In this document: piece after piece, positions 11,063 to 26,375 of the stretch
How the letters are laid out: each line of letters starts with the position of its first letter
Numbering within the stretch: the first letter of the stretch is position 1
Source: Kineococcus rhizosphaerae
Lineage (GTDB): Bacteria > Actinomycetota > Actinomycetes > Actinomycetales > Kineococcaceae
Direction of reading: 5' to 3'
Assembly (NCBI RefSeq): GCF_003002055.1
Contig: NZ_PVZF01000001.1
Span: 558,001 to 622,000, forward strand
Length of the DNA: 64,000 nucleotides
The notes under the pieces: model-generated
What the model was told of the DNA's origin: nothing
The model's database searches: none
What the model saw: the letters and a program-made list of their open reading frames with translations, nothing else
Program-made: the position numbers and the translations under genes

Positions 11063-12169
11063 TCAGACGGCCTGCAGGCGACGGCTCTCACCGTCGAGCG
11101 TGCTCTCGCTCGGCCAGCTCTTGATCTCGGGCAGGCACTTCTCGGCGAACAGGCGCATGTTGCGCCGGGCCTCGTCGCGGGGCATCCCACCGAAGTGGAA
11201 GTGCGGGAAGAAGCCCTGCAGCGCGAGGTCGTCGTTGATGCGCTCGAGCTGCTCGAGCACCTCGGCCGGAGTGCCGGCGGGCATCACCGATGCCGTGGTC
11301 TCGGCCATCTCCTCGATCTTCTCGGGCGAGATGCGCATGTTCTTGTAGAACTCGTTGCCCTTGGTGGTGCCGAAGCCCTCCTCGGCCATGCCGTAGTTGC
11401 GCACCGCGGCCCGGAAGTTCACGCGGTGGTACTCGATGGACTTCTCCTTGGCGCGGTCGCTGCTCTCGTCGACGAAGATCGTGCCGGACAGCAGCGGGGC
11501 CGGAGCCGGACGCGTCGGGTGGTTCTCGGCCCAGACCCGGTTGTAGGTCTCGGTGTCGACGCCGAGGTTGGCGCGCGGCTCGGGGTTGACGATGGCGATG
11601 CCGATGCCCAACTCCGCGACGGTCTGCACCGACTGCGGGGAACCCGCCGAACCGAAGATGCGGCCCTCGAAGGTCTTGAAGGGGCGCGGACGCAGCTCGC
11701 GGCGCGGCTGCTTCGTGATCTCGCCGCCCTCGATGACGCCGGTCTCCAGCGCCGCGATGATGAGCTCCGCGTGCTCGCGGTACAGCTCGCGCGTCTGGTT
11801 GATGTCGACGCGCAGGCCCTCGTACTCGAACCCGCCGAGGCCGCGGCCGAAGCCGAGCAGCAGGCGGCCGTCGGTGACGTTGTCCAGCCAGAGCGCCTGC
11901 TCGGCGACGCGGACCGGGTCGTTCCAGGGCAGGACGATGACCTGGGTGCCGAGCTTCACGTGCTTGGTACGGCCGGCCAGGTAGGCGAGCTCCTGCAGCG
12001 GTGAGGGCGAGATCGAGTAGTTCGAGAAGTGGTGCTCGGTGACCCAGATCGACTCGAAGCCCAGGTCCTCGGCCTCGATCGCCATCTCGAGGTCGTCCTT
12101 GATGAACGTCCGGTCGTCGATCTCGTCGCCGCTCTGGTGCTGGAAGCCGGTCGCGATGCCAACGTGCAT
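11063..12169 (-). CDS. Luciferase-like (LLM) flavin monooxygenase
   Basis: A 368-residue bacterial-luciferase-family TIM-barrel enzyme. The N-terminal WVTEHHFSNYSISPSP segment and the later LLLGFGRGLGGFEYEG are typical of the alkanal-monooxygenase group. Such enzymes use FMNH2 (or F420 in a related branch) to oxygenate aldehydes, ketones or other substrates. A strong AGGAG precedes the ATG. It heads the gene run LLM-SDR-monooxygenase-DUF8021-IclR. A motif shared with the divergent promoter at 13876 lies about 70-90 bases upstream. Confidence 0.85.
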   Translation of the reverse strand: MHVGIATGFQHQSGDEIDDRTFIKDDLEMAIEAEDLGFESIWVTEHHFSNYSISPSPLQELAYLAGRTKHVKLGTQVIVLPWNDPVRVAEQALWLDNVTDGRLLLGFGRGLGGFEYEGLRVDINQTRELYREHAELIIAALETGVIEGGEITKQPRRELRPRPFKTFEGRIFGSAGSPQSVQTVAELGIGIAIVNPEPRANLGVDTETYNRVWAENHPTRPAPAPLLSGTIFVDESSDRAKEKSIEYHRVNFRAAVRNYGMAEEGFGTTKGNEFYKNMRISPEKIEEMAETTASVMPAGTPAEVLEQLERINDDLALQGFFPHFHFGGMPRDEARRNMRLFAEKCLPEIKSWPSESTLDGESRRLQAV

Positions 12170-15578: not shown

Positions 15579-15940
15579 GGCCCCCCACAGGCCCCCACGC
15601 CGGCCGTCGCCGACCGGTGCACCGCTCTCCCCACCGCCGCGCCGTGCGCGCCGACCCCGCAGCCGCCGCGATCGAACGGGCCGCGGAACTGGCCCACCTC
15701 CGTTCCCGGCGCGAGGAACGACGAGCGCGTCTCGTCGCCGACGCCGTCGACGACCTGCGCCGCCGAGGACTGCTGCACCACGAGCAGCCCTCGCACGCCG
15801 ACGTCGCCGAGCGCACCGGACTGTCCCTGGGGCAGGTGCTGTGGGCCTACCCCACCACCGACGACCTGCTCCACGCCGTCCACCCGACAGCTCCCGACCA
15901 CCCGACGTCGTCCGACCACCCGAAAGGACACCTGCCGTGA
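15575..15940 (+). CDS. Small TetR-like helix-turn-helix protein without effector domain
   Basis: A 121-residue protein. Residues about 50-98 look like a TetR-type DNA-binding domain: a basic helix, then HADVAERTGLSLGQVLWAYP and DDLLHAV, the usual hinge into the regulatory domain. The protein stops about 20 residues later, so there is no ligand-binding/dimerisation domain. The N-terminus is very arginine-rich. GTGA overlaps at both ends tie it to the riboflavin kinase and flavin reductase. It may be a local regulator or a truncated relic kept by coupling. Confidence 0.6.
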   Translation: MRPPTGPHAGRRRPVHRSPHRRAVRADPAAAAIERAAELAHLRSRREERRARLVADAVDDLRRRGLLHHEQPSHADVAERTGLSLGQVLWAYPTTDDLLHAVHPTAPDHPTSSDHPKGHLP

Positions 15941-16497
15941 CCGACCTGCACACCGATCCTGGAACCCCCACCCTGGTCCCGTTCGCGGACGACCCCCTGG
16001 CGCTGCGCACGACGTTCGCGCTGTTCCCGACCGGTGTCGCGGCGCTGTCGGCCGTCGTCGGGGGCGAGCCGGTCGTCCTGGTCGCCTCCTCCTTCCAGGT
16101 CGGCATCTCCCTGGACCCCCCGCTGGTCCTGTTCGCCGTCCAGCACACCTCCACCAGCTGGCCCAAGCTGAAGCAGGCCGCCGAGGCCGGCGGCCGCATC
16201 GGCGTCTCGGTCCTGGGCGAGGCCCACGACCTCGCCGCCCGCCAGCTCGCCTCCAAGGCCGCCGACCGCTTCGCCGGCATCGAGACCACGACGACCGACT
16301 CCGGCGCGAACTTCATCCACGGCGCCCCCGTCTGGATCGAGACCTCCATCCACTCCCAGTTCCCCGCCGGCGACCACGACGTGGTCCTGCTGCAGGTCCA
16401 CGCCTCCGGCACCGCCCCGGACACCGAACCCCTCGTCTGGCACTCCTCGGGCTTCCGCACCCTGACCCCCAAGCCGACCCCCCAGGCCGGGGCCTGA
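15937..16497 (+). CDS. Flavin reductase (HpaC/RutF-like)
   Basis: A 186-residue split-barrel flavin:NAD(P)H reductase. The N-terminal FALFPTGVAALSAVV, the VASSFQVGISLDPPLVLF flavin-binding stretch and the C-terminal HDVVLLQVHA are characteristic. It makes free FMNH2/FADH2 for two-component monooxygenases. GTG start overlapping the previous stop, with AAAGGA upstream. Likely partners are the monooxygenases at 8824 and 11063. Confidence 0.88.
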   Translation: MTDLHTDPGTPTLVPFADDPLALRTTFALFPTGVAALSAVVGGEPVVLVASSFQVGISLDPPLVLFAVQHTSTSWPKLKQAAEAGGRIGVSVLGEAHDLAARQLASKAADRFAGIETTTTDSGANFIHGAPVWIETSIHSQFPAGDHDVVLLQVHASGTAPDTEPLVWHSSGFRTLTPKPTPQAGA

Positions 16498-16568
16498 CGC
16501 CGGCCCCGCCCTGCGGGACCCCGACGTCACCGCTGCGGTCCTGCGACCCCGGAGCCCCCGACGGGGAA

Positions 16569-17288
16569 CTACCGGGCCAGCAGGTCCTCGTGGGGGACGA
16601 CGGCGCTCACCACGTCCGGCACGGGGACCCCCGCGGCCCCGAACCAGCCGGCGGCCCAGGCCGACAGCAGCGGGGAGGCGGACAACCGCCACGGGGTCGC
16701 CTCCCGCTCGACCGCCCAGCCCCGCTCGGCGAACCGGTCCGCGACGAACCCGGTGGCGTCCGGACCCAGACCGCGGGAGCGCTGGTCGGCGTCGAACGCC
16801 TGCGCCACCCCCGACGCCGGAGGTTCCACCTCGGCACCGCCGGAGACCGTCAGGGCGAACAGCACCACCGGGCGGGGGTCGAGGGCCGACAGTTCCTCCA
16901 CCAGGACGGTGGCGACCTCGGCGGGCAGCACGTCGAGCAGCGCGGAGCCCACCACGAGGTCGGCCCCGGACAGCGCGGTGCGCAACGCCTCCCGGTCGCC
17001 CAGGTCCAGGCGCGCCGTCCGCACCCCTCCCGGGGCGCGCGCGAGCAGGGCCTCGTCGTGGTCGACGAACAGCCAGTCCTGCTCGGCGTCCACCCCGAGC
17101 TCGACCAGCCGGGGCGCCAGGTGCCGGTACGTGGACCCGGACCCCGCGCCGAGGTCGACGATCCGCAGCCGGGCCGCCCCCGCGCACCGCGCCGCGAGGA
17201 GTTCCTCCAGCCGGCGCGACCGGGCCGCGTGGTCGGCGGGTTCGCGCAGCGCCAGCCAGTCGGGGTCGAAGTTCTCCAGCTCGTTCAC
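16569..17288 (-). CDS. Class I SAM-dependent methyltransferase
   Basis: A 239-residue methyltransferase. Motif I is IVDLGAGSGSTYRHLA at about residues 42-57, followed by an acidic loop (FVDHDEAL), the DLGD motif and VVGSALLDVLP. The GTG overlaps the stop of the glycosyltransferase gene (GTGA). It is the last gene of the minus-strand run with glycosyltransferase, pterin-synthase-like protein and dehydrogenase. The acceptor is unknown. Confidence 0.85.
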   Translation of the reverse strand: MNELENFDPDWLALREPADHAARSRRLEELLAARCAGAARLRIVDLGAGSGSTYRHLAPRLVELGVDAEQDWLFVDHDEALLARAPGGVRTARLDLGDREALRTALSGADLVVGSALLDVLPAEVATVLVEELSALDPRPVVLFALTVSGGAEVEPPASGVAQAFDADQRSRGLGPDATGFVADRFAERGWAVEREATPWRLSASPLLSAWAAGWFGAAGVPVPDVVSAVVPHEDLLAR

Positions 17289-18172
17289 AGCACCCTCTCC
17301 ACGGTCTGCGCGGTCTGCGCCCACGTCGGCAGGTTCCTGGCGAGCGCCGCGCGCCGCAACCGGTGCCGCACCCGCGCGTCGGCGGACCACCCCCGCAACG
17401 CGTCGGCCACGGCGTCCACCGTGCGGGGCACGACGAGCCCGGCGTCGGCGACCAGGGAGGGGAGTTCCCCTTCCGCCGAGACGAGCGAGGGAACTCCCCG
17501 GCGCAGCCCCTCGGCGACGGCCATGCCGTACGGTTCGGCCGCCGACAGCAGGACGTGCAGGTCGGTTCGGTCCCACTCGCGCTGCAGCGCAACTCCCTCG
17601 ACCGGCCCCAGCAACCGCGTGCCGGAGGCGGTGAAACCCTCCTCGACCCGCCCCGCGCACCGCAGGCTCCACGGCGCCCCCAGCCGCTGCACGGCCTCGG
17701 CGACCAGCCGCTGGCCCTTGCGCTCACCGACCGTCCCCACGCACAGGAGCCGGTGGGCCCCCCGGGCGGCCGAGGGCGGCGCCGGGTCCGTCCCCGGTTC
17801 GGCGACGACCGCCTCGACGCCGGCGACCTCGCGGACCCGCCGCGCCGAGCTGCGGCTGGTGACCACGACGGTGTCCACCAGGCGCAGCGAGCGCACCTCG
17901 TCGGCCAGCAGCCCGGGACGGTCGTCGTCGGCCCGCAGCAGGTGCACCAGCAGCACGAGCCGCAACCGCCGGGCGTGGGCGGCCAGGGCGTCGGGGAACG
18001 CCGAGGCGACCAGGCCGTCGAGCAGCACGGTGGACCCGGCGGGCAGCTCGGGCAACCGGTCCGGGTCCTGCGCCCGGACGTGGGTGAGGCCCTCGACCCG
18101 GTCGAGCAGTTCCCGGTCGTAGCGGTTGCCGCCCGTCGGGGCGGACAGGTCCGGGGCCAGGAGGAACCTCAC
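17285..18172 (-). CDS. Glycosyltransferase family 4-like protein, short
   Basis: A 295-residue GT-B-type enzyme, shorter than the usual 360-400. The C-terminal domain is clear: a strand and loop with LLCVGTVGERKGQ, then the donor-binding segment with AAEPYGMAVAEGLRRGVPSLVS, which carries the conserved EX7-like pattern. The N-terminal domain is trimmed. It lies between the methyltransferase and the pterin-synthase-like gene in one transcript, so it probably transfers a sugar onto the pathway's small molecule. Confidence 0.82.
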   Translation of the reverse strand: MRFLLAPDLSAPTGGNRYDRELLDRVEGLTHVRAQDPDRLPELPAGSTVLLDGLVASAFPDALAAHARRLRLVLLVHLLRADDDRPGLLADEVRSLRLVDTVVVTSRSSARRVREVAGVEAVVAEPGTDPAPPSAARGAHRLLCVGTVGERKGQRLVAEAVQRLGAPWSLRCAGRVEEGFTASGTRLLGPVEGVALQREWDRTDLHVLLSAAEPYGMAVAEGLRRGVPSLVSAEGELPSLVADAGLVVPRTVDAVADALRGWSADARVRHRLRRAALARNLPTWAQTAQTVERVL

Positions 18173-18185
18173 GGCGTCGGGGACG

Positions 18186-18563
18186 TCACAGCGTCACGTC
18201 GTACGCGGCCCACGCGACGTCGGACTCGCGCAGCAGCACCGAGATCTGCTCCAGCCCCGTCGCGGGCAGCGCCTCGGCCAGCCGACCCGCGATCCAGCCG
18301 CAGAGGAACTCCGTCGTGGTGTTGCGGCCCGCGAGCTCCGGCACGTCGTCGAGGTTGCGGTAGTCCAGCTGCGCCAGCACCTCGCGCAGCACCCGCGAGG
18401 CCACCCCGATGTCGACGACGAGCCCGTCGGCGTCGAGCGCGGAACGGCGGAACGTGGCCTCCACGACGAACGTCGCCCCGTGCAGGCGCTGCGCCGGGCC
18501 GAACACCTCCCCCGTGAAGCTGTGGGCGACCATGACGCGGTCCCGGACGGTCAGCGAGTACAC
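18186..18563 (-). CDS. 6-pyruvoyl-tetrahydropterin synthase/QueD-fold protein lacking standard ligands
   Basis: A 125-residue T-fold protein. It retains the family framework: AHSF near the start, [27 protein letters not shown] and the terminal glutamate segment [11 protein letters not shown] that binds the pterin. However, the HxH zinc pair is reduced to one histidine (LHGA in place of LHGH), the usual LDH histidine is tyrosine, and I see no catalytic cysteine before LHG. I recall a conserved actinobacterial subfamily with the same changes next to the same genes. So it probably binds a GTP-derived or pterin-like compound but does different chemistry. Confidence 0.8.
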
Positions 18564-18599
18564 GGACGGACTCCTCTCGAGGCGGGGATCACCAGGGGA

Positions 18600-19577
18600 T
18601 CAGTAGCTGAAGCGGTGGCACAGGGCGTCCCCGCCGGCGGCCGCGACCCGGGGCAGCACCTCGGCGGCCTCCGCGAACGGGCTGACGCCGTCGAGCAGCG
18701 CGTCGAACGTCTCGTCGGCGAGCAGGTCCAGGGCGAGGGCCAGCCGGCGGCGGGTGGTCCAGCGCGGCGCCCGCGCCGGGGGGACGCGCCCCACCTGGGA
18801 GGCGCGGATGGTCAGGCGGCGCGCGTGGAACCCCTCGCCCAGCCCGACCTCGACCGTGCGGTCGCCGTACCAGCTGAGCTCGGTGAGCAGCCCCTCGTCG
18901 CCCAGCAGCTGCAACCCGGTCGTGAGCCCGGGCCCCGTCCCGCTGGTGTGCAGCACGACGTCGCGCTCGCGGCGGGCGTCGTCGGGGGCCACCAGCCGGA
19001 ACCCGAGGCGCTCGGCGGTCCCGGCGCGCTCGGTGCGCACGTCGACGGCCTCCACGTCGGTGCCGGGCACCCGGGCGGCCAGCGTCGCCACGAGCAGGCC
19101 CAGCACCCCGGCGCCCACGACGCTGACCCGGTCGCCGATGCCCAGCTGCGCGTCCCACACCCCGTTGACCGCGGTCTCCAGCATCCCCGCCAGCACGGCC
19201 CGCCCGGCGGGGACACCGGCCGGGACGGGCAGCACCGCCGAGGCGGGCACGACGTAGCGGTCCTGGTGCGGGTGCAGGCAGAACACCCTGCGCCCCACGA
19301 GGTCCTGCGCGCGCGGGCCGGCCTGCTCGACGACCCCGACGGACAGGTACCCGTACTTCACCGGGTAGGGGAACTCCCCGGACTGGTAGGGGGCGCGCAT
19401 GGCGTCGTGCTGGCTGGGGGGAACACCCCCGGACAGCACCAGCGCCTCGGTCCCCCGGCTCACGGCGGAGAACTCGGTGCGGACCTCCACGTCGGCGGCG
19501 CCGATGACGGGCAGGAACTCCTCGCGGAGCTCGGCCCGGCCGGGTCCGGTGGTCCACAGGGCCTGCGCGACGCTCAC
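18600..19577 (-). CDS. Zinc-type medium-chain alcohol dehydrogenase-like protein
   Basis: A 325-residue MDR-superfamily protein. The NAD(P)-binding motif is VSVVGAGVLGLL, the substrate domain has EFSAVSRGTEALVLSG and KYGYLSVGVVE, and LHPHQDRYVVPA marks the catalytic-domain core. No structural zinc cysteine cluster is seen, so it belongs to the zinc-light branch. The GTG start overlaps the hydrolase stop. Position directly before the pterin-synthase-like gene suggests a redox step in the same pathway. Confidence 0.85.
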   Translation of the reverse strand: MSVAQALWTTGPGRAELREEFLPVIGAADVEVRTEFSAVSRGTEALVLSGGVPPSQHDAMRAPYQSGEFPYPVKYGYLSVGVVEQAGPRAQDLVGRRVFCLHPHQDRYVVPASAVLPVPAGVPAGRAVLAGMLETAVNGVWDAQLGIGDRVSVVGAGVLGLLVATLAARVPGTDVEAVDVRTERAGTAERLGFRLVAPDDARRERDVVLHTSGTGPGLTTGLQLLGDEGLLTELSWYGDRTVEVGLGEGFHARRLTIRASQVGRVPPARAPRWTTRRRLALALDLLADETFDALLDGVSPFAEAAEVLPRVAAAGGDALCHRFSY

Positions 19578-20764
19578 GGGACGACCTCCAGTTTCGACCT
19601 GACGAACTCGGCGACCTCCGACTCCCAGCGCGCGGGGTCGACGTTCCACTCCTTGGTGTGCCGCGCCGTGCTGCTCGCGACGTACGTCACCAGGTCGGGG
19701 CGGGCCTGCGCCAGCCGCTGCGAGGGACCCGACGGCACGTAGTCGTCGGCGTCGGAGTGCAGCAGCAGGACCGGCAGGAGGAGTTCCTCCGCGCGCGTCA
19801 CCCAGTCCATCGTCCGCAGGTCCACCGGCCCCTCGAGGCCGACCAGGCGCCGCCCGAGCGGGTGCCCGAGGAGCTGCAACCCGTAGCGCCCCAGCCGGAT
19901 CGGCACCCCCCGCCGGCGCGCCTGGTGGTCCAGGACGTCGTACCAGTCGACGACGGGGCCGTCGAGCACGAGGGCGACGACCGTGCCGGCCAGGTCCGAG
20001 CGGGCCACGAACTGCAGCAGGATCGCCCCGCCCATCGACCACCCGACGACCAGCAGCCGGCGGGCCCCGTGGTCCAGGGCGTGTCGCGCGGCGGCCTCGA
20101 CGTCGCGCCACTCGGTGTCGCCCAGCCCGTACCGGCCGGGTCTCGCCTCGGGGGCCTCGGCGTCGTTGCGGTAGCTCGGCACCAGGCACGGCAGGCCCAG
20201 GCCGTGCAGGACGGGGATCGCGCGCAGCGCCTCCTCGCGGGTGGCGCCGCGACCGTGGACGAGGAGCGCCCAGGTGTCCCGGTCCTCCTGCTCCGCCGCG
20301 CCCCCCGCGGCGGGGGCCGGCACGAACCAGCAGGGCAGGTCGCCCACCGCGCTGGTGATCGTCAGGTCCTCGTGCTCGAGCCCGAGCGCCGTGGTGGGGT
20401 CGCCGGCGTAGTAGTACTGGTTCCACCGCGCGTGCCCCGGCGCCGGGGTCCCCGCGTCGACGCCCAGCAGTTCCCGGGTGACGCGCTCGGGCGTGACCTC
20501 CAGGACCCGCCCGACGCGGAAGTGCCCCCGGCCGCCGTCGGTCCACACGCCGTAGCGGCCCGGGACGACCGAGTCGGCGGTGGCCGACAGGACGACGCGG
20601 CGGGGCCCGACCTGCAGGACCTCGACGTCGTCGGGCTTGTGCCGGCGCGGGGTGACGACCGCCCGGGCGAAGGAGACCGCCGTCGCGGTCAGCACGGCGC
20701 CGGTGACGGTCGCGGCGGCGGTCGTGGCCACGGCCCCCACGAGCGCGGCGCGGCGCCCGTTCAC
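19574..20764 (-). CDS. Membrane-anchored alpha/beta hydrolase
   Basis: A 396-residue protein with one N-terminal membrane helix (residues about 8-35, alanine/threonine/valine-rich), so probably tethered to the membrane. The hydrolase core has LLVHGRGATREE (oxyanion loop), the nucleophile in VVGWSMGGAI, an acidic residue in LLLHSDADDYVP and a histidine in ARHTKEWN. It starts at GTG overlapping the stop of the DoxX-like gene. Peptidase, esterase and acyltransferase roles are all possible. Confidence 0.8.
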   Translation of the reverse strand: MNGRRAALVGAVATTAAATVTGAVLTATAVSFARAVVTPRRHKPDDVEVLQVGPRRVVLSATADSVVPGRYGVWTDGGRGHFRVGRVLEVTPERVTRELLGVDAGTPAPGHARWNQYYYAGDPTTALGLEHEDLTITSAVGDLPCWFVPAPAAGGAAEQEDRDTWALLVHGRGATREEALRAIPVLHGLGLPCLVPSYRNDAEAPEARPGRYGLGDTEWRDVEAAARHALDHGARRLLVVGWSMGGAILLQFVARSDLAGTVVALVLDGPVVDWYDVLDHQARRRGVPIRLGRYGLQLLGHPLGRRLVGLEGPVDLRTMDWVTRAEELLLPVLLLHSDADDYVPSGPSQRLAQARPDLVTYVASSTARHTKEWNVDPARWESEVAEFVRSKLEVVP

Positions 20765-21129
20765 CGGCCGGCCCGCGCGACGAGCCGGATCAGCGGGACC
20801 TGCAGCGGCAGCCGCGCGGTGGTCACGGCCCGGCGCACCCCGGACCCACCGCGCCAGGCGTCGAGCGCCATCTGCCCGTTGGCGGGCCAGACGGCGAGCA
20901 GGAGGGCGACGGCGGCGCGCGCGGTCGCGGGCCGGGCGGCGGGGACGGTGAACCCCAGCGCCAGGGCCAGTTCGAGGGCGCCGGAGACGTTCGTCCAGGT
21001 GCGCGCGCGCCCGGGCAGGGCCCGGGGGACGATGGCGTCGAAACCGGCGGGCCGCAGCAGGTGGGCGAGCCCGGCCGCGCCGAAGAGGGCCGCGGGGGCG
21101 GCCCAGCGCAGCGGCGCGGTGCTGATCAC
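20761..21129 (-). CDS. DoxX-like small membrane protein
   Basis: A 122-residue protein with about four short hydrophobic segments. LFGAAGLAHLLRPAGFD and LPGRARTWTNVSGALELALALGF resemble DoxX/DUF4267-type proteins. GTG start. It heads the minus-strand run that continues into the hydrolase. Function unknown. Confidence 0.65.
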   Translation of the reverse strand: MISTAPLRWAAPAALFGAAGLAHLLRPAGFDAIVPRALPGRARTWTNVSGALELALALGFTVPAARPATARAAVALLLAVWPANGQMALDAWRGGSGVRRAVTTARLPLQVPLIRLVARAGR

Positions 21130-21189
21130 GCCCCGATCCTGCCCGACACCGCGCGCCCGCCCGCGAGCGCCCCCGATATCGTCGCCAGG

Positions 21190-21711
21190 GTGCCGACCGC
21201 AGACACCCAGCCCTGGACCGTCGTCGTCCTGACCGAGGAGGCCTTCGGGGACGTCGACGCCCGCAACGTCGCCGCGCTGCACGCCGCCGAGCGCGCCGAG
21301 GGCCAGGACGTGCGCCACCTCGTGCTGGTGCCCGCCGACTCCCGCCGCAACCTGCTCGCCGACGTCCTGGACCACGTGAGCCTGGGCGAGTTCCGGGAGG
21401 CGGTCGCGGACCTGCGCGCCGGGCAGCCGAGCGCCGACGCGGCCCGCGCCGACGCCGAGGCGGCCCTGCGGGCGACGCTGGAGGCGTTGCGGGCCGAGGG
21501 CCTGACGGCCGAGGGGCGCACCACCGACGACGACCCGCTGCCGGCCGTGCGCCGGGCCCTGGCCGACGAGCCCGACGCGCGCGAGCTCGTCGTCGTGACC
21601 CGCCCGCACGCGGTCGAGGACACCTTCCACGCCGACTGGGCCTCCAAGGCCCGCGACACCCTCGGCGTGCCCGTCCTGCACGTCTACGCCGGCACGACGC
21701 GGCTGGGGTGA
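21190..21711 (+). CDS. Universal-stress-like/Rossmann-type conserved protein
   Basis: A 173-residue soluble protein with alternating strands and helices: WTVVVLTEEAF, HLVLVPADSR, and ELVVVTRPHAVEDTFHADWASKARDTLGVPVLHVYAGTT, which reads like an indole- or nucleotide-binding alpha/beta fold of the stress-protein sort. GTG start 60 bases from the divergent DoxX-like gene. I do not recognise a catalytic motif. It is followed by msrB, consistent with a stress role. Confidence 0.6.
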   Translation: MPTADTQPWTVVVLTEEAFGDVDARNVAALHAAERAEGQDVRHLVLVPADSRRNLLADVLDHVSLGEFREAVADLRAGQPSADAARADAEAALRATLEALRAEGLTAEGRTTDDDPLPAVRRALADEPDARELVVVTRPHAVEDTFHADWASKARDTLGVPVLHVYAGTTRLG

Positions 21712-21747
21712 CGGAACACCCGCCCCCCCGGAGAGGTTGGACCTGAC

Positions 21748-22185
21748 ATGACTGCGCACACGCCCGAGACCAGCCGCAAGACCTACGACGTCACGAAGAC
21801 CGACGAGCAGTGGCGCGCCCAGCTGGACCCGATGGAGTACCACGTGCTGCGCCAGGCCGGCACCGAGCGCCCCTTCACCGGCGAGTACGAGGACACCGAG
21901 ACCGAGGGCGTGTACGCGTGCCGCGCGTGCGGGGCCGAGCTGTTCACCAGCGACGAGAAGTTCAACGCCCACTGCGGGTGGCCGGCGTTCTACGACCCCA
22001 AGGACTCCTCGGCCGTGGAACTGCTCGAGGACGACTCCCTGGGCATGCGCCGCGTGGAGGTGCGCTGCGCCACGTGCGGTTCGCACCTGGGGCACGTGTT
22101 CGAGGGCGAGGGTTTCCCGACCCCCACGGACCAGCGGTACTGCATCAACTCGATCAGCCTCACCCTGCGGCCCACGCAGGCCTGA
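21748..22185 (+). CDS. msrB: Peptide-methionine (R)-S-oxide reductase
   Basis: Repairs the R-epimer of methionine sulfoxide in proteins. The 145 residues include two CxxC zinc pairs (CRAC, CATC) and the catalytic RYCINSIS at the C-terminus; GHVFEGEG and HCGWPAF are also family hallmarks. A GAGAGG sequence precedes the ATG at a longer than usual distance. It is a normal-length single-domain MsrB, cytoplasmic, without signal peptide. Confidence 0.96.
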   Translation: MTAHTPETSRKTYDVTKTDEQWRAQLDPMEYHVLRQAGTERPFTGEYEDTETEGVYACRACGAELFTSDEKFNAHCGWPAFYDPKDSSAVELLEDDSLGMRRVEVRCATCGSHLGHVFEGEGFPTPTDQRYCINSISLTLRPTQA

Positions 22186-22200
22186 GGCAGGCTGGGCTGC

Positions 22201-22518
22201 ATGAGCGAGCAGCCCTACGAACCCCGTGACCCCGACGTCGACCCGCTGGCGGACCCCGACCTCCAGCAGGTCGACTCGGACGCCTCCCCCTCGGCCGACG
22301 ACCCCGAGGTCCTGTCGAACGACACGCTCATGCGCGACGACCAGGACGACCAGGGGTGGGAGCCGGAGAACCACCTGAGCAGCTTCACCGCCGAGATCAT
22401 CGCCGACGGCGACCGGGACGACGAGACGCTCGAGGAGCGCCTCGCCCAGGAGGAGCCCGACGTGGACGCCTCCTCGGGCGCGGAGCTCGACTCCGAGCAG
22501 GACTACCGCCAGGTCTGA
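22201..22518 (+). CDS. DUF5709-like acidic protein
   Basis: A 105-residue, strongly acidic, probably disordered protein. The segment DETLEERLAQEEPDV is the recurring DUF5709 signature that I associate with actinobacteria. ATG start 15 bases after msrB, so probably co-transcribed. Function unknown. Confidence 0.7.
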   Translation: MSEQPYEPRDPDVDPLADPDLQQVDSDASPSADDPEVLSNDTLMRDDQDDQGWEPENHLSSFTAEIIADGDRDDETLEERLAQEEPDVDASSGAELDSEQDYRQV

Positions 22519-22551: not shown

Positions 22552-23253
22552 TCAGGGCAGGGTGGAGACCAGTTCCCCCAGCTCGACCCGCGGCCCGGTG
22601 AAGAACGGGACCTCCTCGCGGACGTGGCGTCGGGCCTCGGTGTTCCGCAGCTCGCGCATGAGGTCGACGATGCGGTGCAGCTCGTCGGCCTCGAAGGCGA
22701 GGATCCACTCGTAGTCGCCCAGGGCGAACGCGGAGACCGTGTTGGCCCGCACGTCCTCGTAGGGACGCGCCGCCAGTCCGTGGTCGCGCAGCATCTTCCT
22801 GCGCTCGTCCTCGGGCAGCAGGTACCAGTCGTAGGAGCGCACGAACGGGTAGACGCTCATGTAGTCGCGGGCCTCCTCCCCGGACATGAACGCCGGGACG
22901 TGGCCGCGGTTGAACTCGGCGGGGCGGTGCAGCCCGACGACGGACCAGACGGGCGTCAGGTGCTTGCCGAGGCGGGTGGTCCGGAAGCGGCGGTAGGCCT
23001 CCTGGACCAGTTCGACGGTCGGGGCGTACCACCAGAACATGAGGTCGGCGTCGGCGCGCAGACCGGCGACGTCGTACAGGCCGCGGACGACCAGCCCCTT
23101 GCCGGTGAGCTCGTCGAGCAGGTCCTGGACCTCCTGGGCGTAGGCGGCCCGGTCGGCCTCGCCCAGGGTGGTCTCGACGGCGAAGACGGACCACATGGTG
23201 TAGGCGATGGTGTCGTTGATCTGGTCGGCGGTGGGTGCTGCGTGCTCGGACAT
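22552..23253 (-). CDS. hemQ: Coproheme decarboxylase (HemQ, chlorite-dismutase-like fold)
   Basis: Last enzyme of the coproporphyrin-dependent haem route: converts iron-coproporphyrin III to haem b with peroxide. The 233 residues show the actinobacterial pattern [28 protein letters not shown], containing the reactive tyrosine region (YPF) and the proximal histidine (RDHG). It lacks the residues expected in a true chlorite dismutase and sits directly downstream of hemY and hemE, which settles the call. ATG start. Confidence 0.93.
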
Positions 23254-23267
23254 GCGGCGATTCTCCC

Positions 23268-24677
23268 TCAGCGCCCCGCGAGCCCGGCGGCGACCTCCCG
23301 TGCGGCGCGACGGGCCGCGCCGATGCAGGCGGGCACGCCGACGCCGTCGAGGACCGACCCGCACAGCGCCAGGTGACCGGCGGCCGCGACGGCCGAGCGG
23401 ATCCTCGCGACCCGGTCCAGGTGCCCCACGGCGTACTGGGGCAGGCCGTCGACCCAGCGGACGACGGCGTGGTCGACGGGGTGCAGGTCGCGGCCCAGCA
23501 GTTGGCCGGCGTCGGCCGCGGCCCAGCGCAGCACGTCGGCGTCGTCGGCCTCCAGGGCCTCGGTCTCCCCCGCCCGCCCCAGCGAGACCCGCAGCACGGC
23601 CAGGTCCGGGCTCTGGTGCCCCACCCAGTCCCACTTGTTGCCCGACAGGGTCAACGCCTTGGCGCGCAAGCCCTCGGCGGCCGCGATGACGGGCGGGACG
23701 AGGACCCCCGAGCCCTGCAGACCGACGAGGTCGGCGGCGGGGACGGCGAGCGCGGTGATGACCATGCTCGCGGTCTCGACGGCGCCCAGCTCGGCCGCCG
23801 CGGCGGGCACGGCGGTGCCCAGCAGCCGCGCGGCGGCGGGGGCGGGCACCGCGAGGACGACGGCGTCGGCCGGGCGGCCGTCGACGAGCCAGCCGGTGGG
23901 GGTGCGCTCCAGGCGGGTGACGCCGGTGCCGGTGCGGAGCGTGACGCCGCGCGCGCGCAGCCGGTCGGCCAGGGCCAGCGGCAGGCGGGCCAGGCCGCCG
24001 TCGAGGCCGGCGAAGACGGGCCCGGTGACCTGCGGCGCCGGTCCGAGCCCGCGCAGGAGCGAGCCGCCGCGGCGGGCGTGGGCCCACAGGGCCGGCACGG
24101 TGGCCTGCAGGGACAGCCGCCGGGCGTGGCCGGCGTAGACCCCGCCGAGCAGGGGCTCGACGAGGCGGTCCACGACGGCGTCCCCGACGCGGTCGGCGAC
24201 GTAGTCCCCGACGCTGACGTCGTGCGCGAGGGGCTCGGCGGGGTGCTCGGGTTCGGCCGCGACGCGGTCGGCGTCGGCGGCGGGCAGGAGGTCGCGGACC
24301 GACTCCGCGCTGCGGGGCACCCCCATGACGGTCCCGGCGGGCAGGGGGCGCAGACCGGTCCCGGTGGCCACGGCGGCGCGCGTGGTGGCGGGGTGGACGA
24401 GGTCGAGGCCGAGCTCACCGGCCAGGTCGGTGCCCTCGGGACGGCGCGCGAGCATGGACTCGGCGCCCAGGTCGACGGTGAGGCCGCCGACGTCGGCGCG
24501 CTGCAGGACCCCGCCGAGGACCGGGGAGGCCTCCAGGACCTCGACGTCGACCGCGACGTCGAGGCCGTGGCCGTCGTCGAGGCCGCCCGACAGCTCCCAG
24601 GCGGCGACGAGACCGGACAGGCCACCGCCGACGACCACGACCCGGGGAACGACCCGCGGGACGGCCCGGGGGGTCAT
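23268..24677 (-). CDS. hemY: Coproporphyrinogen III oxidase (HemY/CgoX, FAD-dependent)
   Basis: FAD enzyme that aromatises coproporphyrinogen III to coproporphyrin III in Gram-positive bacteria. About 469 residues; dinucleotide motif [16 protein letters not shown] at the N-terminus, [20 protein letters not shown], and the C-terminal FAD motif around [15 protein letters not shown]. The ATG at 24677 overlaps the hemE stop (ATGA); a GTG three codons earlier is possible. Second gene of the hemE-hemY-hemQ operon. Often named protoporphyrinogen oxidase in annotations. Confidence 0.92.
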
Positions 24678-25717
24678 CCCCGCCACGCGTGGACCTCCTC
24701 GACGACGCGCTGCAGGACGTCGGGGTCGGCGGTGGGCGGCACGCCGTGGCCGAGGTTGACGACGTGCCCGGCCCCGGCGCGCTCGCCCTCGGCGAGGATG
24801 CGGTGCAGGTCGGCGCGCAGGACGTCCCAGGGGGCGAACAGCAGGGCCGGGTCGAGGTTGCCCTGCACGGCGACGGGGCGCCCGGCGCCCGCGCGGCCGC
24901 GGGCGGCGCCGACGTCGAGGGGCACGCGGAAGTCGACGCCGAGGACGTCGACGCCGCCGTCGATGGCGGCCATGGCGCCCAGGAGCTCACCGGTGCCGGT
25001 GCCGAAGTGGGTGCGGGGCACGTCGAGGTCCGCGACGTGGGCGAGGGCGGCGGCCGAGTGGGGGGCCACGAGGTCGGTGTAGGTGGTCAGCGGCACCGAG
25101 CCCACCCAGGAGTCGAACAGCTGCACCGCCGAGGCGCCGGCCAGGACCTGCGCGCGCAGGAAGGTCCCGGTGATCCGGGCCAGGCGGGCGGCGAGGTCGT
25201 GCCACAGCTGCGGGTCGGCGTGCATGAGGGCCTTGGTGCGCAGCAGGTCCCGGGACGGGCCGCCCTCGACGAGGTAGCTGGCGAGGGTGAAGGGGGCCCC
25301 GGCGAACCCGATGAGCGGGACGTCGCCCAACTGGGCCGTCGTGAGCCGGACGGCGTCGGTGACGTGCTGCAGCTGCTCCAGGGACAGCTCGGGGATGCGG
25401 TCGAGGTCGGCGCGGGTGCGCACGGGCTCGGCGATCACGGGGCCGGTGCCGGGGACGATCTCGACGCCGACGCCGGCGGCCTCCAGGGGCACGACGATGT
25501 CGGAGTAGAAGACGGCGGCGTCGACGTCGTAGCGCCGCACGGGCTGCAGGGTGATCTCGGCGACCAGCTCGGGGCGGCGGCAGGACTCCAGCATGGTCGT
25601 CCCGGCCCGCACCCGGCGGTACTCCGGCAGGGAGCGCCCGGCCTGGCGCATGAACCACACGGGGGTCCTGGAGGGGGTGGTCCCGCCACGGGCGGCGTGC
25701 AGGTAGGGCGAGTTCAC
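24674..25717 (-). CDS. hemE: Uroporphyrinogen decarboxylase
   Basis: Removes four carboxyl groups from uroporphyrinogen III to give coproporphyrinogen III. The 347-residue protein has the N-terminal signature FMRQAGRSLPEYR, the central FAGAPFTLASYLVEGG and the C-terminal NLGHGVPP. GTG start chosen to match the family N-terminus (SPYLHAARG). First gene of the haem operon; divergently oriented from the DUF3000 gene 64 bases away. Confidence 0.96.
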   Translation of the reverse strand: MNSPYLHAARGGTTPSRTPVWFMRQAGRSLPEYRRVRAGTTMLESCRRPELVAEITLQPVRRYDVDAAVFYSDIVVPLEAAGVGVEIVPGTGPVIAEPVRTRADLDRIPELSLEQLQHVTDAVRLTTAQLGDVPLIGFAGAPFTLASYLVEGGPSRDLLRTKALMHADPQLWHDLAARLARITGTFLRAQVLAGASAVQLFDSWVGSVPLTTYTDLVAPHSAAALAHVADLDVPRTHFGTGTGELLGAMAAIDGGVDVLGVDFRVPLDVGAARGRAGAGRPVAVQGNLDPALLFAPWDVLRADLHRILAEGERAGAGHVVNLGHGVPPTADPDVLQRVVEEVHAWRG

Positions 25718-25781
25718 GCGAGCGATGCTCCCACGGCGTGGCAGCGCCTCGACCGGGGCGTGCGTGCCTACGCTCGCTGCC

Positions 25782-26375
25782 GTGAGCGTGCGCCGAGGAC
25801 GACCGGGACCGGCTGCGCCCGTCCTCCCGTCAGCCTTCGAGGCGGCGGTGGCGGCGGTGCGCGAGGTCCGCCTGCGCTCGGAGGTCGTGCTGACCGAGGT
25901 GCCGGCCCCGGCGCGGATCGCCCCGCACGCGTGGGCGGTGGCCGGTGACGTCGTGGTCGACGGCGACGAGCTCGCGACGGGGCGCTTCATCCTGCTGCAC
26001 GACCCCTCCTCCCCGCAGGAGTGGGGTGGGCCGTTCCGCGTCGTGACCTACGCCCGGGCCGACCTGGAGGCCGAGCTGGGCGCGGACCCGATGCTGGGTG
26101 CGGTGGGCTGGTCGTGGCTGGAGGACGGGCTCGCCGGGGCCGGGGCCCTGGCCTCGGAGGTCGGCGGGACGGTCACGCGGGTGCTCTCGGAGGGCTACGG
26201 CGCGCTGGCCGACCGGGAGGCGTCGGTGGACGTGGAGCTGCGGGCGTCGTGGACGCCGCAGGACCCCGACCAGCTGCCCGCCCACCTGCGCGCGTGGGGC
26301 GAGCTGGTGTGCACGGTGGCGGGTCTGCCGCCCCTGCCGGACGGCGTCGCCTCCCTCGGTCGCCGCACCCGCTGA
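25782..26375 (+). CDS. DUF3000-family protein
   Basis: A 197-residue actinobacterial protein of unknown function. FILLHDPSSPQEWGGPFRVVTYARADLE and GWSWLEDGL are the family signature as I know it. The GTG at 25782 is the likely start (another GTG follows two codons later). Its place between hemE and a response regulator/RNase D pair is common in actinobacteria. Confidence 0.8.
   Translation: MSVRRGRPGPAAPVLPSAFEAAVAAVREVRLRSEVVLTEVPAPARIAPHAWAVAGDVVVDGDELATGRFILLHDPSSPQEWGGPFRVVTYARADLEAELGADPMLGAVGWSWLEDGLAGAGALASEVGGTVTRVLSEGYGALADREASVDVELRASWTPQDPDQLPAHLRAWGELVCTVAGLPPLPDGVASLGRRTR

Follow-up and report, generated by a model that had tools for sequence, protein, structure and literature searches.

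Canonical enzymes of the 6-pyruvoyl-tetrahydropterin synthase (PTPS) family carry an HGH motif, a loop cysteine and an Asp-His pair, and the conserved glutamate of their T-fold reads a 2-amino-4-oxo edge. Here we describe an operon of the actinobacterium Kineococcus rhizosphaerae in which a PTPS-like protein with a different active site is encoded together with a zinc-type dehydrogenase, a glycosyltransferase and a methyltransferase. It lies in a stretch of 64,000 nucleotides (contig NZ_PVZF01000001.1, positions 558,001 to 622,000), hereafter the window. The original prediction, made from this DNA alone, was an uncharacterised pathway leading to a glycosylated, methylated pterin-like or deazapurine-like compound. 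We propose, with a probability of about 0.6, that the operon is the core of a conserved pathway around the PTPS-IV subfamily, with GTP cyclohydrolase II, rather than GTP cyclohydrolase I, as the entry from GTP.

The closest described systems

The FGPAQ loop of the window protein is the signature of PTPS-IV, a subfamily of COG0720 (PMC5445326). The accessible part of that paper, which appeared in 2017, gives a PTPS-IV neighbourhood with PF00925 and PF01872 and labels PF00925 as cyclohydrolase I (FolE2); this label notwithstanding, the family PF00925 comprises GTP cyclohydrolase II. The best solved relative is 3d7j, the SCO6650 protein of Streptomyces coelicolor (phmmer E=5.8e-41), whose structure was reported in 2008. 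FGPAQ and the T-fold are common to the window protein and to PTPS-IV and SCO6650 as far as the accessible text describes them (PMC5445326), and the clusters of its relatives likewise have cyclohydrolase II and RibD_C in the wider neighbourhood; for the window's own gene, a pathway-type pair lies about 500 kb away. We see no difference in kind. "Uncharacterised" thus holds for the product, for which we found none accepted, and no longer for the subfamily, which has a name, a solved relative and a printed neighbourhood. A literature search that left most subscription literature outside its scope found no function for PTPS-IV or the cluster beyond one sentence on coenzyme F420 in the accessible part of PMC5041015. 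To the published picture we add a wider gene set, sister clades, and a coupling between a switch residue of the cyclohydrolase and a creatininase gene.

With QueD, the 6-carboxytetrahydropterin synthase (PTPS-I), the operon protein has in common the T-fold, the pterin-binding glutamate and two zinc histidines; it differs in lacking the cysteine, in a tyrosine at the dyad, in reading HGA, in having no identified queuosine neighbours and in the presence of cyclohydrolase II instead of I in the clusters of its subfamily. Another parallel is the archaeal-type early riboflavin/F420 route (the GTP cyclohydrolase III ArfA, ArfB and a reductase) together with bacterial BrbF. It likewise combines a separate cyclohydrolase that leaves the formyl group on, an amidohydrolase (BrbF had been annotated as a creatininase; PMC9478397, accessible part) and a deaminase-free reductase. 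In contrast to that route, a GTP cyclohydrolase II homologue would perform the first step here, and the pathway would run on into PTPS-IV, the dehydrogenase, the glycosyltransferase and the methyltransferase.

A conserved gene set

A collection scan returned at least 557 relatives. A separate scan of viral contigs confirmed no close relative. The best 80 were analysed; by record title, 65 are actinobacterial and 15 come from Proteobacteria, Gemmatimonadota or Acidobacteriota, so that the set occurs in other actinobacteria, as first supposed, and extends to three further phyla. The original prediction had made itself dependent on the genes being conserved together, and among these 80 loci they are: the dehydrogenase is present in all (within 302 bp on the same strand in 78), profile searches found the glycosyltransferase in 76 and the methyltransferase in 71, and dehydrogenase, PTPS and glycosyltransferase genes are consecutive on one strand in 75. 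Across the set of 97 loci (L031-L127), the dehydrogenase gene shares the strand of the PTPS gene in 96 and lies within 302 bp on that strand in 95; only L040 (opposite strand, at a distance of about 5 kb) and L101 (2.5 kb) depart from this pattern.

Fifty-six of the 80 loci have more than 6 kb of DNA on both sides. With profiles that were iterated on the same loci and hence are tuned to them, these contain a glycosyltransferase in 53, a CDP-alcohol phosphotransferase in 53, a methyltransferase in 52, a flippase-like LPG_synthase_TM protein in 51, GTP cyclohydrolase II in 43, a creatininase in 35, RibD_C in 21 and a membrane sulfatase-like protein in 18. All six of dehydrogenase, PTPS, glycosyltransferase, methyltransferase, CDP-alcohol phosphotransferase and flippase-like protein occur in 46/56, and GTP cyclohydrolase II or RibD_C lies within the locus in 50/56. 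The deaminase motif is missing from all 44 cluster RibD_C open reading frames (ORFs) and present in the full RibD of the window's genome. The cluster cyclohydrolases come from several branches of the GTP cyclohydrolase II tree, which suggests that the clusters require the product of this enzyme rather than a particular gene lineage.

The recurrent GTP cyclohydrolase II and RibD-type reductase partners favour the pterin or aminopyrimidine side of the predicted product; the deazapurine side is not supported, as no queuosine-type gene is among the recurrent neighbour families identified, some minor families being unnamed. The substrate first suggested for an assay, 7,8-dihydroneopterin triphosphate, is probably not the right one, given that GTP cyclohydrolase II, and not I, is what the clusters encode.

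Active site of the PTPS-IV proteins

The window protein retains H14, H28 and E113. Alanine (A30) stands at the third zinc histidine (HGA for HGH), the catalytic loop reads FGPAQ (residues 21-25) without a cysteine, and LDH has become LDY, with the aspartate retained and Y68 in place of the dyad histidine; the altered site with its kept glutamate was thus read correctly from the start. The whole chain holds no histidine besides H14 and H28 and a single cysteine, C88, so that no residue of it restores the site, and the compensating histidines that had been considered as a way back to a normal QueD site do not exist in it.

In an alignment of 83 members (loci L031-L112 and the window protein), H14, F21-G22-P23-A24, H28, A30, Y68, N70-L71-D72, E85 and E113 are invariant, and Q25 is kept in 80. 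The aspartate position of LDY varies: 64 members have N there, 11 have T, and no more than 5 have D. The invariance of A30, Y68, FGPA, H14, H28 and E113 therefore points to a site under selection and not to decay.

An ordinary QueD, PTPS or folate enzyme with tolerated changes, acting on dihydroneopterin triphosphate, would also keep the T-fold and the pterin-binding glutamate and match the Pfam PTPS family. Against it, the protein scores 45.7 bits where the QueD model TIGR03367 has its cut-off at 89.25, and 33.4 against 125.5 in a further comparison, and A24, Y68 and A30 occupy the cysteine, dyad histidine and third zinc histidine positions in 83/83 members. Neither the QueD motif CxxxHGH with its Asp-His pair nor the PTPS-II (biopterin) motif CxxxxxHGH is present, the loop cysteine being absent and HGA standing for HGH, and QRLHGA is found in place of the PTPS-III (folate) motif ExxHGH. 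Ordinary FolE is present in 19/20 genomes examined, and the window's genome has FolE as well, yet the clusters carry cyclohydrolase II. SCO6650 itself is reported to be zinc-free and without PTPS activity while retaining a pterin site. On the motifs, the model scores and the separate FolE we reject a QueD, biopterin or folate role, and we regard an ordinary enzyme as highly improbable.

Degenerate and canonical PTPS proteins

A phylum sample of 396 genomes contained 87 with a match, and 53 loci were read, some of them with only 1.5 kb of flank, the remaining weaker matches being left out; two of the 53, truncated copies of one gene, were excluded. A dehydrogenase lies within 2.5 kb of 33/33 complete PTPS genes whose products lack the cysteine and the dyad histidine, versus 0/18 canonical ones (Fisher p = 3.6e-14, a value that ignores kinship). 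Two canonical loci have a weak glycosyltransferase match nearby. In the tree the canonical group separates at 98/93 support. The degenerate proteins form three groups whose mutual order the tree leaves unresolved: the HGA clade, a presumably Rubrobacter-like clade that keeps HGH, and a third clade. The dehydrogenase accompanies all three, as does the loss of the cysteine and the dyad histidine; the zinc ligand is lost only in the HGA clade.

The third clade (L129, L146, L156) is highly diverged, keeps HxH as HHH, HSH or HAH, and lacks the cysteine; RibD_C, dehydrogenase and glycosyltransferase genes adjoin, with cyclohydrolase II in 2/3. Near the Rubrobacter-like clusters (L113-L127) there is often a divergent acyltransferase-like gene, along with PHP-type hydrolase-like and alanyl-tRNA editing-like genes, all named by eye.

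These sister clades bear on a second explanation, in which the T-fold protein catalyses nothing and serves as a binding or scaffold subunit. The true product would then be a glycolipid that the glycosyltransferase, the CDP-alcohol phosphotransferase and the flippase-like protein make, with the cyclohydrolase branch supplying only a head group or a regulator. Lost catalytic residues around an invariant pocket would fit it, as would the membrane-lipid type genes in 51-53 of the 56 well-covered clusters. The sister clades, however, keep RibD_C, dehydrogenase, PTPS and glycosyltransferase, and the profiles detect no lipid genes there, which makes the lipid part seem accessory; we consider this explanation possible but doubtful.

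The cyclohydrolase switch residue and the creatininase

Work of 2006 by Bandarian on the cyclohydrolase II paralogues of S. coelicolor reportedly found that SCO6655 gives a formylated product and that a methionine in place of tyrosine decides this. The matching residue is position 105 of E. coli RibA; the tyrosine of the YLRGHEGR loop was considered as the switch and rejected. The residue could be read in 53/97 loci, fragments in L034 and L057 having been dropped. Thirty-two clusters with a non-Tyr residue have a creatininase and one has none, while 18 Tyr clusters have none and two have one (n=53; p = 5e-11 for an association that reflects a single evolutionary event and not independent cases). 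In the single non-Tyr cluster without creatininase (L033) the contig stops shortly past the methyltransferase, and some of the 18 Tyr clusters without it also sit on contigs that end soon past the cluster. Five more Tyr clusters of the window's order have no creatininase either. In one Streptomyces genome (G412) the cluster copy of the cyclohydrolase has Met and the two other copies have Tyr.

The creatininase motifs EQHG, TD, HGGN and H-x-G..ET are intact in 13 aligned cluster members (from 41 ORFs). A precedent for the proposed deformylating role is BrbF, a formamidase formerly annotated as a creatininase (PMC9478397, accessible part). A second creatininase subtype occurs in six non-actinobacterial clusters (L052, L053, L089, L091, L092, L099), all of them with RibD_C.

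A proposed pathway

In the reactions that we infer, cyclohydrolase II would open GTP to 2,5-diamino-6-ribosylamino-4-pyrimidinone phosphate. The switch-residue variant of many actinobacteria would instead leave the formyl group on, and the creatininase-family amidohydrolase would strip it. Where present, the RibD-type reductase would reduce the ribosyl chain and, because it has no deaminase domain, would leave the 2-amino-4-oxo edge intact. PTPS-IV would hold this edge through Glu113; since the cysteine and the dyad histidine are lost (and in the HGA clade one zinc ligand too), the usual side-chain cleavage should be beyond it, and it more likely binds, ring-closes or channels an intermediate together with the dehydrogenase. 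The latter would oxidise a side-chain alcohol, the ribityl C2' being the most attractive candidate. The glycosyltransferase and the methyltransferase would decorate the product, which in the fuller clusters the CDP-alcohol phosphotransferase and the flippase-like protein may place on or across the membrane. We predict as the product a 2-amino-4-oxo-pyrimidine or pterin that is glycosylated and methylated and may be linked to the membrane.

A more specific version is a third route to a dihydropterin ring, one in which GTP cyclohydrolase I has no part. Cyclohydrolase II (where needed, with the creatininase-family deformylase) and the deaminase-free reductase would yield 2,5-diamino-6-ribitylamino-pyrimidinone phosphate; the dehydrogenase would oxidise C2' to the ketone that the Amadori rearrangement of cyclohydrolase I also produces, and the zinc-free T-fold protein would close the ring. 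The pterin would then be glycosylated and methylated; where the cluster is fuller, it would also be joined to a lipid and transferred to the outer leaflet of the membrane. We offer this version tentatively, as a rather doubtful one.

A role of PTPS-IV in coenzyme F420 biosynthesis has to be weighed here, as the cyclohydrolase II and RibD_C chemistry is upstream of F420. Of 30 PTPS-type genomes examined, about 27 have the HGA form and the others belong to the sister clades; 17 of the 30 have CofH above its cut-off. A single sentence in the accessible part of PMC5041015 gives, as unpublished, an involvement of PTPS-IV in F420. That sentence concerns the archaeal cofactor, however; CofH does not exceed the cut-off in 13/30 genomes, including G008 (estimated 100% complete) and that of the window, and has no match at all in 7/30, including G397 and G408, both metagenome-assembled genomes with records titled "chromosome". 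No F420 gene is among the recurrent neighbour families identified. With CofH missing or below cut-off in PTPS-type genomes we reject an obligate F420 role, and an F420 role of any kind seems unlikely. The window's genome has CofH/FbiC-like matches under the CofH cut-off at G000:C9:82685-85925.

Points that weigh against the proposed pathway

The proposal of a cyclohydrolase II-fed PTPS-IV pathway has to accommodate several observations that speak against it. The function of E. coli RibA position 105 as a switch between formylated and deformylated product is presumed from reported biochemistry. The non-Tyr cyclohydrolases form one clade (99/93), so that their coupling with the creatininase counts as one event and not as 32. 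The two Tyr clusters that carry a creatininase (L091, L099) have it in the other subtype. RibD_C is missing in 31/33 non-Tyr clusters and present in 19/20 Tyr clusters, and the reductase-driven step may therefore not be universal: either the reductase gene lies at another place in the genome, or Tyr and non-Tyr clusters have different ways into the steps that they share. A RibD_C search elsewhere in creatininase-type genomes is uninformative, since it failed to recover even the cluster copy known from G413.

The window's genome adds further points of this kind. Its early-pathway genes are not adjacent to the operon, both of its cyclohydrolases have Tyr and are thus not of the SCO6655 type, and a search without positive control found no flippase-like orthologue. 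The operon occurs in 4/10 congeners and PTPS-IV is absent from the other six, so the pathway must be dispensable.

Candidate partners are nevertheless encoded in this genome, where PTPS-IV is the only PTPS homologue at E <= 1e-6. A pair of GTP cyclohydrolase II and RibD_C genes without deaminase lies at C1:75.2-76.6 kb, about 500 kb from the operon, and its RibD_C is closest to the cluster RibD_C of L053, L105, L052 and L107; a second cyclohydrolase II pair, with full RibD, evidently serves riboflavin. A CDP-alcohol phosphotransferase gene (C1:375444-376169) encodes the family motif, and its product shares 51% identity with the enzyme of cluster L111. The one creatininase of the genome, on C14, is not counted among these partners.

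The operon and its surroundings

The predicted four-gene span, 16569-19577 on the minus strand, is exact, and the tight packing is borne out by gaps of 36 bp between the dehydrogenase and PTPS-like genes and 13 bp between the PTPS-like and GT4 genes, followed by a 4-bp overlap of the GT4 and methyltransferase genes (Table 1). Because the hydrolase and small membrane-protein genes join through further 4-bp overlaps, the transcription unit probably comprises six genes and starts near 21129; a simple scan of 16400-22500 found no sigma-70-type promoter or terminator. A listed ORF at 18589-19557 is in the wrong frame. Both added genes are present in 4/4 congeneric clusters, and the alpha/beta hydrolase was not detected in the 97 loci profile-searched or in 10 loci of other genera. 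No Pfam family matches the small membrane protein, and the label "DoxX-like" was dropped for want of Pfam support.

For the dehydrogenase the nearest curated model is bchC (TIGR01202), with 61.6 bits against a cut-off of 291.25, which places it outside BchC. Its AlphaFold model has the fold of the medium-chain dehydrogenases/reductases (MDR; pLDDT 93.9), and E44, H104, E134 and H251 are invariant in 42 aligned sequences. In a search with this model, polyol dehydrogenases rank near the top but tied with others, which indicates the general MDR fold only; polyol specificity is not supported. Sequence searches found no solved relative of the methyltransferase (E up to 0.01) or of the glycosyltransferase (E up to 0.001).

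Table 1. Genes of the operon and neighbouring genes (window coordinates)
Feature	Position	Strand	Length	Remarks
Class I S-adenosylmethionine-type methyltransferase	16569-17288	-	239 aa	Pfam match weak, under cut-off
GT4-type glycosyltransferase	17285-18172	-	295 aa	Below the length of most family members
PTPS-IV-type T-fold protein (P0001)	18186-18563	-	125 aa	Pfam PTPS E=6.7e-25
Zinc-type (MDR) dehydrogenase	18600-19577	-	325 aa	
Alpha/beta hydrolase	19574-20764	-	396 aa	4-bp overlap with dehydrogenase gene
Small predicted membrane protein	20761-21129	-	122 aa	First gene of probable unit; 4-bp overlap with hydrolase gene
Luciferase-like monooxygenase	11063-12169	-		Beyond flavin reductase-like gene
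Flavin reductase-like protein	15841-16497	+		Convergent with operon
MsrB/SelR protein	21748-22185	+		Divergent from operon
Chlorite-dismutase-like (HemQ-type) protein	22552-24087	-		Upstream of operon
Uroporphyrinogen decarboxylase	24674-25990	-		Upstream of operon

Implications

With the extended gene set, its three clades, the scattered genes of the window's genome and the link of switch residue to creatininase, a subfamily of "unknown function" becomes an ordered and testable pathway. Such a pathway would also account for the retention in S. coelicolor of a cyclohydrolase that reportedly leaves the formyl group on. If the proposal is true, a glycosylated pterin-type compound would be a widespread and so far unseen metabolite of many soil bacteria.

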